DNA of 64,000 nucleotides from positions 1,116,001-1,180,000 of the forward strand of contig JAXBDG010000001.1 in assembly GCA_036320915.1 (NCBI GenBank), given 5' to 3'. Position 1 is the stretch's first letter. Every line of letters starts with the position of its first letter. The DNA is from Linnemannia elongata (lineage: Eukaryota > Mortierellomycota > Mortierellomycetes > Mortierellales > Mortierellaceae). The notes under the pieces were generated by a model. It was not told the origin of the DNA, searched no databases, and saw nothing but the letters and a program-made list of their open reading frames with translations. Made by a program: the position numbers and the translations under genes. Below are positions 44,535 through 51,802 of this stretch, piece after piece.

Positions 44535-47104
44535 CTATACAGTTGGAGGGGAAGGAGGAGTGGTGGACGAGGATGCAGCAGGGGGAGAGTCGGTAGTGGG
44601 TGCAGATGTTGAGCCGTTAGCGTACTGCTCATCCTGGGCAGTGACCTCAGTTCCCAAGAGCTCGTGCAACTTGTCCTGGAAGGGGCGCTTGCCAAGGAGT
44701 CGCTCCATATCTGCGCGGTTCAAGACCTCTTTCTCCATCAACAGCTTGGCAACCTTCTCGACATCGGCACGCTTCTCGGTTAAAAGGTTGGTCGTCTTGC
44801 GGAATGCCTGGCCGATCAATGACCGCACCTGGTTATCGATCAACTGGCCAGTCTGCTCACTGTAGGGCTTGGTGAACTGGTTCTCTTTCTCGGGGTTGCC
44901 GTATGACAGGGGTCCAAGCTCAGTGTCCATTCCATAGGTGGCCACTAATTGTTTTAAACAATGTGCGGTCGAAATTAGTCTTTTGAGCCGATTCACAATT
45001 TCTAATTGTATGAGCAGAGTAACAATGAAAGTAACATACCTTGGGCGTAGGCCATCTTGGTGACCTTTTGGAGATCATCCTGAGCACCGGTGGTGATAGT
45101 GCCGAAAAAGATGTGCTCAGAGACACGTCCACCAAGAGTCATGCACATGCGATCCATGAGCTGCTGAGTCGAGTACAGGTACTGGTCCTTGGGCAGGTAC
45201 TGGGCATATCCGAGAGCGCCAACACCGCGAGGGATGATGGAAACCTTCAACAAGGGGTCAGCGTGCTCCAGGTACCATCCTGCAACAGCGTGACCAGCCT
45301 CGTGGTAGGCAACAGTCCTCTTCTCCTCAGGCGACAACACTTTGGACTTCTTCTCCAAACCAACAATGACACGCTCAATCGCAGCTTCAAAATCAGCCTC
45401 GACCACAGTCTCCTTGTTGTGTCTGGCTGCGATGAGAGCAGCCTCGTTACAGACGTTGTGGATATCGGCTCCAGAGAATCCAGGGGTAAGAGCAGCCAAC
45501 TTCTGTGCCAGTTTGGGAATATCCTCCTCCGTCTTGATGGGTCTCAAGTGAACTTTGAAGATGTCGCCTCTGCCCTTGATGTCTGGACGGTCAATGGCAA
45601 TGTGGCGATCGAAACGACCAGGTCTCATCAAGGCATCGTCCAGAACATCAGGTCTGTTGGTTCCAGCCAAGACAACAACGTGCTCATTCGATCCGAAACC
45701 GTCCATCTCGACCAACAACTGGTTCAAGGTGCTCTCACGTTCATCGTTACCGCCAAACTGACCACCCTTGCCACGAGCCTTTCCGATGGCGTCAATCTCG
45801 TCAACAAAGATAATGCAAGGGGCATGCTTCTTGGCGCTGGCAAAGAGATCACGGACACGAGACGCTCCGACACCGACAAACATCTCCACGAATTCCGATC
45901 CTGAGACGCTCAAGAAGGGGACGCCAGCCTCACCGGCAGTAGCTTTGGCCAAAAGCGTCTTTCCTGTTCCGGGGGGTCCACTGAGAATAGCGCCCTTGGG
46001 GATCTTGGCTCCCAGCTTCTCGTAAGCAGCAGGGTTCTTCAAGAACTTGACAAACTCCATAATCTCAACCTTAGCCTCGTCCATTCCTGCAACATCCTTG
46101 AACTTGACGGTGATGTCGGTCTCCTGGTTAAACAGCTTGGCCTTGGACTTACCGACGCCAAAGATGCCCTGTCCTGCTCCTCCGCCTCCCTTCTTGGCCA
46201 TGTAGACAAGAACACCGACCAACAACAGGGTAGGTGCAAAGTGGATCAGGGTGCCCAGGACGTTGACCTCATCCCTGTAAGAGACTGGGATGCGCTCCGA
46301 TCCAGGAATACCGAGCTCTGACTGTGCCTCATCCAACTTGCGCTCAAAAGCCTCAACCGATCCAATGCTGAATGTGTAGGTCGTTCCGTGGGGCTGGCCC
46401 AAAGCGCCAGGGATCTGGCCGGGAGCATCACCGCGCAAAAAGACCTTGACTCTGTTCCTGTTCAAGACAACAAGACGATCCACCAATCCGCGATCCAAGA
46501 AAGTCGATCTGAACTCCTGCCAGGTGATCTCGCGGGTGTTGTCTGAAGGCGACATGGCCTTGTAGAGAACGTAGGAGGTGAAGGCGATAGGGAGGACGGT
46601 GTTGGGGTTGATCTTCATCTGATAGAACTGGCCCTCTGGAGGAGGGATAGGCTTGCGGTTAGGTTGACGCTGGCTTCCGCCCTGATTATTGCTGTTGTTA
46701 CTGCTGTTTCCTTTGTTCTGGCTGCTGCGCTCGGAATTGTGGTTCTGGTGAGGTGTGTTGTTGTTGGAAGAACCTTTTTGACCGCCGTTTCCGCTGTTTC
46801 CTGACTTTGAGGCCTGCTGTTGTCCGCCGTTCTCGGCCTTCTTGGCAGCATCGCGGAGGACCTTGCCGAAAAAGTTCTCGAATCCCTTGGGGACATTGTC
46901 GGGTCTGTTGTTCTCGCCATGGGGCTGCTTGTCGGCAGAGTAAAATCGTGTCTGGATGCGACGTTGGTAGAGTCCTGATCGGGACGAGTTGAAGATGGAA
47001 GTGGAAGAGAGGTGGTTGAGACGGGACAGAGATAAGGGAGCACTGCCGCAGCCCTTGGAGGAAGCTGCCTTCAAGGGAGACGCCCTAGCTAGGAAGGCGC
47101 TCAT
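44535..47104 (-). CDS. Mitochondrial m-AAA protease subunit (Yta10/Yta12, AFG3L2-type)
   Basis: Exons 47104-45040 and 44944-44535 join in phase to give 824 residues. It is an ATP-dependent zinc metalloprotease of the inner membrane, facing the matrix, that degrades unassembled membrane proteins and matures bL32m in yeast. The N-terminus is Ser/Arg-rich, consistent with a presequence, followed by an Asn/Gln/Gly-rich linker. Two membrane segments flank the intermembrane-space domain (near [17 protein letters not shown] and [18 protein letters not shown]). Then GPPGTGKT (Walker A, about 375), [11 protein letters not shown] (Walker B, about 435), [20 protein letters not shown] (SRH) and [10 protein letters not shown] (zinc HExxH, about 600) complete the FtsH architecture. 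The C-terminus ends in a Ser/Thr/Pro tail. It is converging with ISY1. Which of the two subunit types it is cannot be settled here. Confidence 0.95.
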
Positions 47105-47263
47105 GATGTGAATGATGGTAGGAATGAAATGTGAAGAAGCACAAAGTCTGAAATGAGAGCCAACTCTCAGGTTATTTAAAAAAAAAAGATCTGTCAAAAG
47201 TCGTGTGAAGGACAACCGAAGATCGAAAAGCGGAAAGCCTACGTCATCGAAGCGCTTGGATAG

Positions 47264-47282
47264 GGAAGAATGGGCGCATAAA
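47264..47282 (+). repeat. Left terminal inverted repeat of the two-nuclease element
   Basis: GGAAGAATGGGCGCATAAA. Its reverse complement occurs at 51716-51734 with a single mismatch (18 of 19), and the inner 14 bases AATGGGCGCATAAA (47269-47282) match perfectly. It ends 109 bases before the element's start codon. No target-site duplication is evident outside. Confidence 0.7.
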
Positions 47283-47391
47283 CTCATATTTGGATGGATT
47301 AAAAGGGACAAGACAATGAGCATAAGTTTCCCACCCTTTCAACTTTATACATCTCCCAAACTGCTTTGACTACTCATACCTTTTATCAGTC

Positions 47392-50300
47392 ATGGGGTGC
47401 CGATCCCTGTGGCGCTTTCTCAGCAAGAAGAAGCACAAACCTCCTCTCCTTTACCTTCGGTCACAACGAGATGAAGGAACATCCAACCAGTTTCGTGTCG
47501 ACGTCCAAGCATGTCTCTTCTCAACGATTCGATACGCCTATACTGCTTCTCACTCCCTGGAAGTGGCCCACTCGGTCGTCGAAAAACGCGTTAAGAAACT
47601 CGTCAAGAATCTCACGACTGCGGTGCTTTACTTTGATGGTGCCCCGGCATTGGAGAAACAACACACTCATCGGCAGCGACAAGAGCTTCGGACCAAGGCC
47701 CTGGATAACGCCAACAAGGCCCTGGATAACGCCAACAAGGCTGTCGATAACTTTGTCGAACGCGTCAACAACAACCAACGAATACGCAAGTAGCACTTCA
47801 TTACTATCAACAAAAATCTCGCAACGGCATTTCGATGTGATCCGGTGGCGAAACAATCGCTAATAGCTTATCTCAGGGAGCGAGGATGGAACGTCGTTGA
47901 GTGCCCAACTGAGGCGGACACCAAGATCGCCGAGGATTGCCATCCTGGGGATGCCGTTATATCCTCCGACAGCGACTCCCTTGTCTACAGGAACATCTCG
48001 GTTGTCTGGCGCCCAATATCAGGAGGACGATTCTTGGTGTACAACATCGACGAGGTCTTGTCAACGCTTGGTCTGAATAGGAATCAGTTGACTGTACTTG
48101 GCATAGTCTCCTACAACGATTACAACAAAAATATCTACGGTTTGGGATGCGCAACAAATTATGGAATCATCAAAGGCTTTACGGAAGAAGGTATATCAAT
48201 TACGTTATCTACATTGCTAAGAATTTACTATTTATTACGTATATTAATTCTCATATCTCTTTTCAATTAGGAATGGAGGTGCCGCCCATGGTGGAAGCGT
48301 ATCTGACTGACAGTCGCGTCGAATTCAAGAACAGGGACAAGCTAAACTTCGCCACGTCGATCCAAGTCTTTGTTGGTGGAAGGCAAACACCAGTTTCATT
48401 TACAACAAACAACAGCTTTGATGATCCGGGTATACTGACGGTAGAGAAGGTCAAGGCACGTTTTGCAGAGGCCCGTTCGATTTACAAGCAAAGAAAGAGC
48501 GAAGAGGAAATGGCCAAACAAGCGAGCAAAAGGTATAGATCAAAGTTGCAGTAGTCTTTACAGCCACCAACATGCCATACCCTACAGTTGATTCTAATAA
48601 TCATTCTTTTGAAAATAGGTCTTCTCCGGACACGTCTACGCAGAGACACAAACCGTCACAGCGCTTCAACAGATACCGGACTATCGACCGACCTCCGCCC
48701 GTGGAGCACAAGGATATCACGGATACGACAAAACGGAAGCACTCAACAGCCTTCGTTCATCGGCCCCGGTTTTCGGTCAAAGCCCGAACAAGGAAAATCA
48801 AGCATGAACCTCCGCCTGCCATGAAGCAGTATTCCTGGAAATCGTGGAAAAAGAAGCCAGAAAGTCCAGCTGTCGACGCGATCGAAGCCAAACCCAAGCC
48901 TGAAGAGTTTGCCAAGTCGCCTTCTTTCAAGTCTCCGCGTCCTCTTGGACCCATGGACAAAAATCAGATTGTCCAAGAACTCAGAAGGGAACACCCCATG
49001 GCAATGCTCCGTGTTGGAACGCTGGCTAAGAACGTCAAGAGTGCACTGAAGGACGATGTCGCCATTGCCAAGGAAGCCATTGGTTGTTTGCAGGAAGCGG
49101 TTCATGAGGCATACGAGGTGAAGAGGCGGGCACAGAGGCTTGTAGGGATGTTTGTTGAGAGGATGGGCGCCGGTGACCTCCTTCCTACTGACCGTGAGTA
49201 TCTAGATCTTCTCTGCCCAAGGATCGTACCTGAAGAGTCCAGCAAGAATGAAAACGTTGGACATGCCAACCCGGACGATGATGACGACATCAAAAACGAT
49301 CGCCAGCAACATTTCCTGCTCGCATTCTTGCGCTTCCTATACTCGGGTAACTATCCACGTGAACAAGGTGTCGGCCGATCCGTCAACGGATTCATTCAAC
49401 GGCTGAAGGGATTGGGTTTGTTCGATCGTTTACGGCAGTCTCCTTTGCGCGACAGGTCGGTTTTACGCGAGACTACGACTTTTCCGCCCACCGAACTTGT
49501 GCGATCAGTATCTTCCCACCTGACGGTCGAACTCAAGAAGATGTACAATAATGGAACGCGAGAGATACAAAAGCAGGTACGAGTAAGCCCTATTGCCTTT
49601 GAAGACATTACTTGTTTGGAACGTTCTGAAAGCAAATCTTTAACACTATGTGTCCAATATTTCTACCCCTTTTCATCATAGCTGAAGGATCAAAAGGTCA
49701 AGGACGAAGACTCCTTAAAAGGATATGACCTGGAGATTCATCAAGAGAAGACAGCTGTTGAGAACTTTCTTGAGTTTAACAGGATGAGTGGAAACACGCG
49801 CCGGATTGCCCCTATATCGTCGAGCAAGGATGGTTTTGTTTCGTTTTCGGAACGAGAGATTATCGGTTTGTTCTGGAAGAGACCCATGATCAAGGCCAAG
49901 ATTCTGGCGTTGGTAACGCCCATGTTCCCTGGCTGTCTGGCATTGAACGATGTGACGACGATTTGGCTGCGCGACCAAGAACCAGGGTTCGTGATCAAGA
50001 GCCTGCTTTGTGATGTTGCTCCTGTTGGTCTGACGAGTCGACAGAGGGGCAAAGCAGGATATCGGGCCGCGATCAAGTTGATGACTATTCCTGAAATCAA
50101 GGACCATCTCTCGACCATCCGCCAGCCAGACTTCGACCCAGGAACCTATGCCACGAAAGGATATCTTCTCCGAGGGTCTATTCGGACTAATGGCTTCAGT
50201 ATTCAGCTAGCGGCTTTCAAGCTGAAGGAACTTCAAGCCGTTCGGTACAGGAGATTTCCAGAGGATCGTCTGCCATCTCGGTTGACGACCACAGTGGGCG

Positions 50301-51596
50301 GATTGGACTATTACTTGATGGAGATTCGGAATATTGCTCGGACCAAGGAAGACGTCGTGGAGTTATGGCCAAATTGTGCGCCCGATCAGATCAAGATTTT
50401 ATCTGTGGACTTGGGTCAAGCCTACGTTGTGGGAGCCTACGCCTCATTGCCGAATTCGACATGCGATACCATCAAAGGGAACGCCTCGACCGCCATGGAT
50501 ATATCGACCGTCTCGACTCTGGCCCCTGTGACCATGCTAAGCAGCCCACCTCAGCCTCAAGTGTTCTATAACCTGTCAGTCAAACAGAAGGCCGTCTCTC
50601 AACCAACTTTCAAGTTTCGGAGATGGACGGAGGATCAAAAGAAACTTGTTCCTGTGGGCGCGGTCAAGTCGGTACAGGATATTGAGTCGGATTTGCCCCC
50701 TCTCCGAGGTCAGGATGCAAGTGTAGTGGATTATGTTGAGGAGATCCAAGTAGCGGAGGACCAATTGCAGGAATTCTACAACGGCAGCAACATGCGATAC
50801 CAGCGCCATAGTTTCGATGCCAGTCGCGCCCGTGAGGAAGAGTTCCGGACAATCGCGGATCGTCTGTTAAGTATGATTGGAGGTTCGGTCGGTGCAAAGA
50901 GAAGCGAGGACGACATGGTGGTCATTGCAATTGGGTTGGGGCAATTTGCGAGTCGGTCGGGACTATCTTCATTGCATGGAACTTTCTTTGCCTTCTTTGT
51001 GTGCCTGGTAGGTGCTTCATCATAACAGCATAGTCTTTTAGGAAAGGGCTTATTTCATTTATTAACTTGCCAAACATATCATTCTTATGTCTTTTTAGGC
51101 CCGTTCGCTTGGGTATATCGTTGTCGGAGTTAATGAATATTACTCTTCAAAGAAGTGTCCTCGCTGCCAGGCCTTTGTGGCGCAGGTTACGATCCGGAGA
51201 TTGTTCTGCAAGGCCTGTAGTATGTACTTTCACAGGGACGAGATGGCCGCGCATAACATGGCGAATGCAGTTCGCGGCCACCTTCTGGACCAACAACGAC
51301 CAGACTATTTGCACCCCATCGATGCTCAAGGCCGGTACCCTTGGAAGGAGGACCTCAGCAGCAGTGCAGATGGAGTTGGAAGCAGCACCAGCACCAGCAC
51401 CCGACCCGACACCGATGCCAAGCCCAAGTCAACTCCAACCCGACAGCCCAGGAAGCGCAAGGCCACCGACAACACGCAACCTCAATCAAGTTCAGCTCGA
51501 CAGCCCAGGAAGCGCAAGGCGATCAATACCGCACAGCCTCTAGCAAATCCCACCCGGCAGTCCAGGAAGCGCAAGGCCGTGGAGGAGGCGGACTAA
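47392..51596 (+). CDS. FEN1/XPG-like flap nuclease joined to a Fanzor (TnpB-like) RuvC nuclease; one in-frame stop
   Basis: Exons 47392-48190, 48271-48532 (or 48550), 48619-49576, 49682-51007 and 51099-51596 are phase-consistent, 1,280 codons. Residues 1-262 read as a FEN1/XPG nuclease: MGCRSLWRFL start, FRVDVQA (D37), YFDGAP (D82), CPTEADT (E174, D176), SSDSDSL (D193, D195), YNDY (D243) and a helix-hairpin-helix-like IYGLGCATNYGIIKGF. A TAG at 47791-47793 (codon 134) interrupts it in frame; no splice junction removes it without deleting conserved sequence. Residues of about 670-1170 match Fanzor: RuvC-I KILSVDLGQAY (D916), AIGLGQF, NEYYSSKKCPRC (E1128, C1135, C1138), LFCKACSMYFHRDEMAAHN (C1152, C1155, D1162). 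The canonical RuvC-II Glu is absent and E1128 is the likely substitute. The tail repeats RQ(P/S)RKRKA three times, a probable nuclear signal. Two adjacent genes, split at 48533-48618, remain possible. Confidence 0.8.
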
Positions 51597-51715
51597 GGGA
51601 GGATTGAGATTGGAACCAGCAACAGACTAGTTTTCATTTTTTGGAGTGTTGCACCCACTCTACACACTGCTGATTGAGGGCAGTAGGTGCCTCTGGGTTG
51701 CGTCCGGTGACGTAA
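51597..51715 (+). ncRNA. Candidate guide (omega) RNA region of the Fanzor element
   Basis: In TnpB and Fanzor elements the guide RNA usually overlaps the end of the nuclease gene and runs to the right element end. This 119-base stretch between the stop codon and the right inverted repeat holds small hairpins, such as GAGTG-ttgcacc-CACTC (51646-51662) and CTGC...GCAG (51667-51683). It is proposed from position alone; no homologue was compared. Confidence 0.3.
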
Positions 51716-51734
51716 TTTATGCGCCCATTGTTCC
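51716..51734 (-). repeat. Right terminal inverted repeat of the two-nuclease element
   Basis: TTTATGCGCCCATTGTTCC is the inverted partner of 47264-47282 (18 of 19, inner 14 perfect). It begins 119 bases after the stop codon of the nuclease gene and lies just beyond the CWC22 3' end. Confidence 0.7.
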
Positions 51735-51802
51735 TCTTTTAACCGCTTCTTTATTTCATTTTTATTAAAAAACTAAAAAAAAAAAAAGGTAACACGAGAG
51801 AG

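Follow-up and report, generated by a model that had tools for sequence, protein, structure and literature searches.

We analysed 64,000 nucleotides of the Linnemannia elongata genome (C1:1116001-1180000 of an assembly of 51.1 Mb in 32 contigs; hereafter the window) and find that it contains a degraded copy of a Mortierellaceae terminal-inverted-repeat transposon, the XPG-Fanzor element. The gene of this transposon joins a half resembling the XPG/FEN1 5' nucleases to a half resembling the RNA-guided Fanzor nucleases. The fused architecture is a property of a transposon family and not of one odd locus, and reading frames, splice phases and relatives make it highly probable that the flap-nuclease/Fanzor fusion is real, with a single transcript predicted.

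A fused gene that recurs across a transposon family

The Fanzor half has 103 exon matches in the genome, clustering to 35 loci, and the XPG half has 38. At 30 of the 35 Fanzor loci an XPG-like exon lies upstream on the same strand, across gaps of 431 to 2,364 bp, which rules out a chance pairing of the halves. Seven XPG matches remain, four of them about 3 to 4.5 kb upstream of other matches to the Pfam TNB profile; this profile matches the genome 54 times, 20 of them with no XPG match nearby. The initial annotation, which had proposed the fusion from this locus, had allowed that the pairing might be unique to it through a chance insertion; instead, the fused open frame recurs in the family and in other species.

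The junction between the halves is conserved. In the five subfamilies tested (W, A, E, D and B), intron 1 is in phase 1 and intron 2 in phase 2, and exons 1 to 3 are free of stops apart from one TAG in the window copy. Family A copies on C5, C1, C27, C7 and C28 are stop-free before codon 1323, giving a fused frame of about 1,322 codons, and the five intact copies of this family are at least 98.8% identical. No Met is found within 30 codons ahead of exon 3 in A, E, D and B, and the first Met past the junction lies between 60 (D) and 212 (E) residues in, behind conserved residues and motifs; exon 3 therefore makes sense only if read from upstream.

Relatives in other species tell the same story. 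The fused A protein as query found 21 database proteins, 13 of which cover at least 84% of the query at 31-81% identity. All 21 NCBI relatives are named 'hypothetical protein', and they come from Linnemannia, Podila, Haplosporangium, Gryganskiella, Mortierella, Entomortierella and Benniella, genera that, L. elongata apart, we take to belong to the Mortierellaceae. One L. elongata protein (P0017) has the sequence of the genomic copy E_C31. The XPG part alone as query found 81 proteins and the Fanzor part alone 151, of which the best 120 were examined. Among the matches listed, the named relatives are from Mortierellaceae genera plus one partial Apophysomyces protein, the others being metagenome proteins. 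The Apophysomyces protein (P0201), which matches the Fanzor part, is the sole named one from outside the Mortierellaceae among these matches; Apophysomyces belongs to the Mucorales, and the match may reflect contamination or horizontal transfer. A search for viral relatives gave 14 pattern matches, none of which was confirmed.

Could the halves instead be two separate proteins from neighbouring genes of one transposon, with the fused models as prediction artefacts? Several observations point that way and weigh against a fusion. Some annotations show two gene models where we read one gene (P0027/P0129 and P0059/P0115), the window copy has an ATG (48572) inside intron 2, in frame with exon 3, and in the window copy and its nearest sister the XPG half looks relaxed while the Fanzor half is constrained. 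However, the phase-2 junction and open frame are kept in all five subfamilies tested, Met codons are missing where a separate Fanzor gene should start in A, E, D and B, and long single gene models are predicted in several species, and we consider two proteins unlikely. A chance juxtaposition or dead pseudogene without family-wide meaning could appeal to the nonsense codon of the window copy, but the paired loci, intact copies, conserved active sites and relatives in other species already contradict it, leaving it barely credible.

The pairing may extend to deeper lineages. At C9:872300-877300 (L077) and C11:31300-36300 (L078) an XPG-like frame precedes a Fanzor whose DPG and T-D/N-G motifs have the classical form, RuvC-I reading IDPGE on C9 and WDPGE on C11. 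An in-frame phase-2 GT-AG join is available at both junctions as one of few choices. The Pfam XPG profiles stay under cut-off here, so the XPG label of these lineages rests on XPG-half matches and motifs. Further candidates of this kind lie at C12:1107175-1112020 and C12:1850125-1853986.

Fanzor TNB matches also occur about 6 to 15 kb from contig ends (C32:6152, C6:6338, C3:12111, C2:8289, C9:1447301, C27:2931583 and C31:2724596). In the two that were read, on C32 and C6, a long frame precedes the TNB match and no XPG was seen; judged from its reading frame only, this is presumably an F-box/leucine-rich-repeat protein.

The C-terminal half resembles Fanzor1 nucleases

The Cas12f1-like TNB domain of the window copy scores 40.6 bits in Pfam (cut-off 26.3), and the C-terminal half of an AlphaFold model of a relative matches solved Fanzors; the Fanzor-like half proposed initially is borne out by both. 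The RuvC D-E-D residues are kept in 28, 28 and 26 of 30 aligned rows. The window copy reads N-E-YYSSKK-CPRC, with the alternative Glu six residues ahead of the first CxxC, and has its Asp codons at 50408 and 51237. An alternative Glu at this spacing before CxxC, within a RuvC D-E-D, is the rule given for Fanzors in the available part of PMC10711439. The TDG motif of the WED domain has D in 22 of the 30 rows, N in four, E in one and a gap in three; the window copy has TNG.

Two findings weigh against this assignment. The available text of PMC10711439 describes a RuvC-I DPG as near-exclusive to Fanzors; the family has D-G/L/A-G there and the window copy D-L-G. In addition, searching the sequences of solved structures with profiles of the two halves brought up little or nothing: profile A2 gave no matches at 0.001 to the solved-structure sequences, and profile A3 found only LaTranC, at 0.003-0.004. 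A single protein, P0004, matched LaTranC (7.6e-6), RAD2 (3.3e-4) and the TnpB-like L79 (1.9e-3). Since these searches are weak, the fold assignment rests on predicted structures and Pfam. We read the C-terminal half as probably a Fanzor1-like nuclease, with RNA-guided cleavage as its predicted activity.

The N-terminal half resembles XPG/FEN1 5' nucleases

With the pieces on either side of the TAG scanned apart, the window copy scores 25.3 bits for XPG_N (Pfam cut-off 22) and 26.5 for XPG_I (cut-off 24.9). The seven acidic ligands of the nuclease are kept in 31, 36, 33, 32, 33, 33 and 35 of 36 aligned rows. In an AlphaFold model of the relative P0022, the N-terminal half matches the FEN1/EXO1 fold, at 12-18% identity to solved FEN1/EXO1-type structures. 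Profiles and predicted fold thus agree with the XPG-like character first ascribed to this half. On the other side, Pfam XPG_I reaches an E-value of 0.001 in only three of 15 aligned relatives (TNB in 12 of 15), and P0022 itself stays under the Pfam XPG cut-off. Because XPG_I is weak in the relatives, we base the label on the scores of the window copy together with motifs and fold. These suggest a 5' nuclease of the XPG/FEN1/EXO1 fold, with flap or exonuclease activity predicted.

The window copy is broken within its XPG half

The features of the window copy, all on the plus strand, are as follows.

47240..47247, +, CRE-like (cAMP response element-like) target motif TACGTCAT, at the place where TGACGTCAC stands elsewhere; three mismatches to the 9-mer
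47250..47257, +, left 8-bp imperfect target-site duplication AAGCGCTT; 7/8 bases match 51741-51748
47258..51740, +, whole XPG-Fanzor transposon, 4,483 bp, from identity with the C23 copy, inverted ends and duplication
47258..47284, +, left terminal inverted repeat and element start; identity with C23 begins at 47258; inverted match to the right end
47392..48190, +, exon 1 with the XPG-N and XPG-I regions; phase-1 intron after it
47791..47793, +, in-frame TAG (nonsense) at codon 134, inside exon 1 between XPG-N and XPG-I
48271..48532, +, exon 2, last part of the XPG half plus the basic linker
48533..48618, +, intron 2, where the XPG half meets the Fanzor half; phase 2 as in all five subfamilies tested
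48619..49576, +, exon 3, beginning with the NRYRTIDRPP linker and going on to the N-terminal Fanzor portion (REC/WED, inferred from a relative's model)
49682..50998 (or 51007, with the alternative donor 51008), +, exon 4, which continues the Fanzor half and includes T-N-G (50186) and the RuvC-I Asp (codon 50408)
51099..51596, +, exon 5 with alternative RuvC-II Glu, ribbon, RuvC-III Asp, basic C-terminal repeats and stop
51686..51726, +, stem-loop candidate (possible guide-RNA scaffold) with core GGTGACGTAATTTATGCGCC; p 0.08 against shuffles, weak
51714..51740, +, right terminal inverted repeat and element end
51741..51748, +, right imperfect target-site duplication AACCGCTT

The five exons have GT-AG borders; several other frame-keeping donors and acceptors were also listed by the script. 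The acidic ligands D37, D82, E174, D176, D193, D195 and D243 named in the initial annotation are confirmed to the exact codon, at 47500, 47635, 47911, 47917, 47968, 47974 and 48118, and its RuvC/zinc-ribbon core lies where it had been placed: in exon 5 the alternative RuvC-II Glu codon is at 51135, CxxC...CxxC runs from 51156, and the RuvC-III Asp codon is at 51237. The single reading claimed across five exons does not hold for this copy, in which codon 134 is a TAG that the earlier residue numbering counted without remark. Relatives have a sense codon at this position, and their conserved coding sequence runs straight through the stretch, ruling out an intron that would mask the TAG at 47791. 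The window copy consequently cannot yield the fused protein without read-through.

The nearest genome match to the window copy, on contig C23, is 97.7% identical over 4.49 kb. It stops at codon 225, where the window copy stops at 134, and the Fanzor frames of both are open and constrained. A transcript of the window copy that is unspliced or starts later could, from the position of the intron 2 ATG, still give the Fanzor alone. These points count against a fused product in this branch of the family: the halves may have become separated in this copy and in its sister on C23.

The Fanzor C-terminus (51400-51590) has three basic repeats, RQPRKRKA and variants of it, and RKR motifs are also C-terminal in relatives; the repeats are possibly nuclear localisation signals. 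Next to the element, a minus-strand frame (45002-47104) starts about 150 bp away, and the element occupies its upstream region. From its reading frame only, we take it to encode an FtsH/AFG3-like AAA protease.

Selection appears to differ between subfamilies

To compare constraint on the two halves we used the ratio of nonsynonymous to synonymous rates (dN/dS, omega), leaving out A_C32 and, owing to an overlong model end, A_C1 versus A_C27b for exons 4-5 and for all exons. Within family A, the XPG exons of A_C5 and A_C1 differ by seven synonymous and two nonsynonymous changes (omega 0.08). The comparison with A_C27b, itself stopped at codon 54, gives 16 and seven in the XPG exons (omega 0.13) and an omega of 0.43-0.59 in exons 3-5, depending on the segment. 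For the window copy and C23, the XPG half has three synonymous and 13 nonsynonymous changes (omega 1.29), and exons 3-5 have 25 and 19 (omega 0.06-0.29 by segment). Judged by these substitution counts, the XPG half is retained in the young family A. It looks relaxed or lost in the window subfamily, where the Fanzor may have persisted alone.

Element ends, duplications and a target motif

Family A copies have sharp boundaries, each end carrying GGSTGCAGGACAAT, and the gene takes up most of their 4.69-kb element. Copies up to 99.96% identical stand at different sites with perfect duplications, and the family looks recently moved. Among 16 copies with both ends, the 8-bp duplication is perfect in nine and at least 7/8 bases match in 12, the window copy among those with 7/8; a duplication is absent from the expected place in W_C23, B_C28, B_C32 and E_C1. 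E_C31 and A_C27b, whose left ends are unmatched, are left out of this count. A 7-bp duplication was considered and replaced by one of 8 bp, under which the inverted repeats of family A become symmetrical.

Many insertions share a left-flank motif. Ten of 20 flanks carry the CRE-like motif TGACGTCAC with at most two mismatches (four exactly) at offset -19 relative to the left end; other offsets from -40 to -9 never exceed one flank, and across the window such matches occur at a rate of 0.09%. Three mismatches stand at this offset in B_C3, A_C7 and the window copy, and five or more in B_C16, C_C27, x_C9, E_C1, D_C8, F_C4 and W_C23, x_C9 matching exactly one base off. E_C4, a flank outside the 20, matches exactly. 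The core TGACGTM recurs in 19 aligned right ends, which were chosen with a pattern containing this core. The motif could be read by a transposase, by the Fanzor (as a transposon-adjacent motif, TAM) or by a host factor. To judge by their flanks, B_C31 (C31:23845) and E_C4 have each inserted at the TGACGTMA core within another member's right end.

A candidate guide RNA at the right end

Between subfamilies A and E, identity over the last approximately 156 bp of the element is 87-89%, compared with approximately 70% where coding stretches align, a pattern that would fit a guide RNA scaffold at this end. Stem-loops are predicted at the right end, often closed by CUUCGG. Speaking against such a scaffold, the hairpins beat shuffles at p<0.05 in only six of 19 right ends, and RNAalifold finds no covariation in the right-end hairpin. 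We treat a right-end guide RNA, suggested by conservation and predicted folding, as a lead.

What moves the element

No gene other than the fused one was recognised in the element. The matches to its ends that were listed comprised 18 for the left end, 42 for the right end and 43 for the short repeat, plus a further set of 12. Beyond the copies, loci were opened on C32, C28, C27, C9, C7, C17, C5, C1 and C21/C29, the other unpaired matches being covered at most as right ends of 230-240 bp. Among the matches opened, no transposase gene is bounded directly by matching ends. They contain Fanzor remnants (C32:627-630k, C28:641k and C27:530k), unrelated nested elements (C9 and C27), and host genes or nothing recognisable (C7, C17 and C5). 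At C21/C29, where the sequence is duplicated, a retroviral-type integrase frame stands close to a site resembling the terminal inverted repeat, and no second end was found there.

The locus C9:199863-207606 (L065, L083 and L050) is an internally deleted family member with nested inserts, namely a hairpin-like element of about 0.7 kb bordered by TA and an insert of 6.6 kb whose inverted repeats measure 153 bp. Frames in the larger insert are, by our reading of the frames only, hAT- and CENP-B-like. This insert, having inverted repeats of its own, accounts for their lying there; a transposase source in trans may nonetheless exist.

Eight-bp duplications are left by hAT and some other DDE transposases and are not diagnostic of one superfamily. 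A transposase of this 8-bp type acting in trans is the plainest candidate for the mover, and hAT is named among the transposases associated with Fanzor1 in the accessible portion of PMC10711439. The fused protein might alternatively mobilise the element itself, its RuvC and XPG nucleases excising and inserting it, which would make the element autonomous and of a new mechanistic type. Such a reading draws on the gene filling most of the 4.69-kb family A element, on the near-identical copies with perfect duplications at different sites, and on the matches opened having shown no end-bounded transposase gene. Yet we know of no Fanzor or TnpB that joins strands, and C9 does have hAT- and CENP-B-like genes flanked by matching ends, though the nested insert explains them. 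The odds of autonomy are further lowered because the 8-bp duplication fits known transposases such as hAT better, and we hold it to be improbable. We give similarly little credence to the idea that the element is a self-contained kind of transposon, one polypeptide combining excision or target opening with the steering of repair, its target being set by the TGACGTCA motif, whose core also stands in the element's own right end.

A proposed role in repair of empty sites

By analogy with TnpB, we propose that RNA-guided cutting of empty sites is coupled to 5' end processing that favours copy-back of the element, a proposal whose chances we rate as even. Carrying an RNA made from the right end of the element, the Fanzor half would cut empty sites, either the donor site after excision or an allelic site. 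The tethered XPG half would remove 5' flaps or resect 5' ends at the Fanzor break. Repair would then copy the element from the other chromatid or allele rather than proceed by simple end joining, so that the element would be kept or spread.

A point that weighs against this role is that retention by repair is borrowed from TnpB models: cutting of empty sites so that repair restores the element is established thinking for TnpB and is extended to Fanzors with caution (PMC10432273, in the part available). The fusion itself is much firmer than its proposed role. Rather than the cut target, the XPG half might trim the guide RNA, the displaced strand or flaps of transposon replication. It is well established that XPG-family enzymes cut branched nucleic acids, and stem-loops are predicted at the right end; however, nothing points specifically to RNA as the XPG substrate and the hairpin statistics are weak, and trimming of this kind appears a doubtful alternative to processing of the cut ends.

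Comparison with known systems and implications

FEN1 reads E-A-E at the second acidic pair of its active site, where the XPG half has E-A-D. The half shares the predicted fold and the seven acidic ligands with the FEN1/EXO1/XPG (Rad2) 5' nucleases; unlike them, it is transposon-borne, joined to an RNA-guided nuclease and only 12-18% identical to the solved structures. The TAM of IS200/IS605 and IS607 lies on the left flank, and the left-end motif of XPG-Fanzor recalls it. TnpB of these elements is the ancestral RNA-guided nuclease; in contrast to TnpB elements, XPG-Fanzor is eukaryotic and spliced, has inverted repeats with duplications, and has no TnpA. Also close are the Fanzor1 terminal-inverted-repeat elements (SPu-1/SpuFz1 of Spizellomyces and PpFz1 of Parasitella), which are alike in predicted fold, RuvC D-E-D and T-D/N-G. 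XPG-Fanzor differs from them in adding the N-terminal XPG/FEN1-type nuclease and introns, in 8-bp duplications rather than TA, in the CRE-like motif and in D-[GLA]-G at RuvC-I. As far as the available parts of PMC3627910 and PMC10432273 go, SPu-1 combines inverted repeats with a single Fanzor frame, and no transposase was found for it. The benefit of Fanzors to transposons, propagation or action in trans, is left open in the same portion of PMC10432273.

In literature that links Fanzor to XPG or to Mortierella, or TnpB to flap endonuclease, we found no flap-nuclease/Fanzor fusion, one Fanzor survey lying outside this scope. What appears to be new, as read from the genome, is a Fanzor transposon with a fused repair-type nuclease. 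Engineered fusions of Cas9 with repair factors, such as CtIP-Cas9 (PMC5859065, in the part available), similarly tether an RNA-guided nuclease to a repair factor to bias repair towards homology; XPG-Fanzor differs in having evolved, in using a different partner and in that its effect on repair is inferred. A natural FEN1/EXO1-type fusion, under selection in a recently active family, points to processing of DNA ends after the cut, an idea that becomes testable with a single protein. The target motif offers a handle on how the element chooses its sites. If the proposal is true, XPG-Fanzor would be a natural counterpart of the engineered Cas-repair-factor fusions and possibly a tool.

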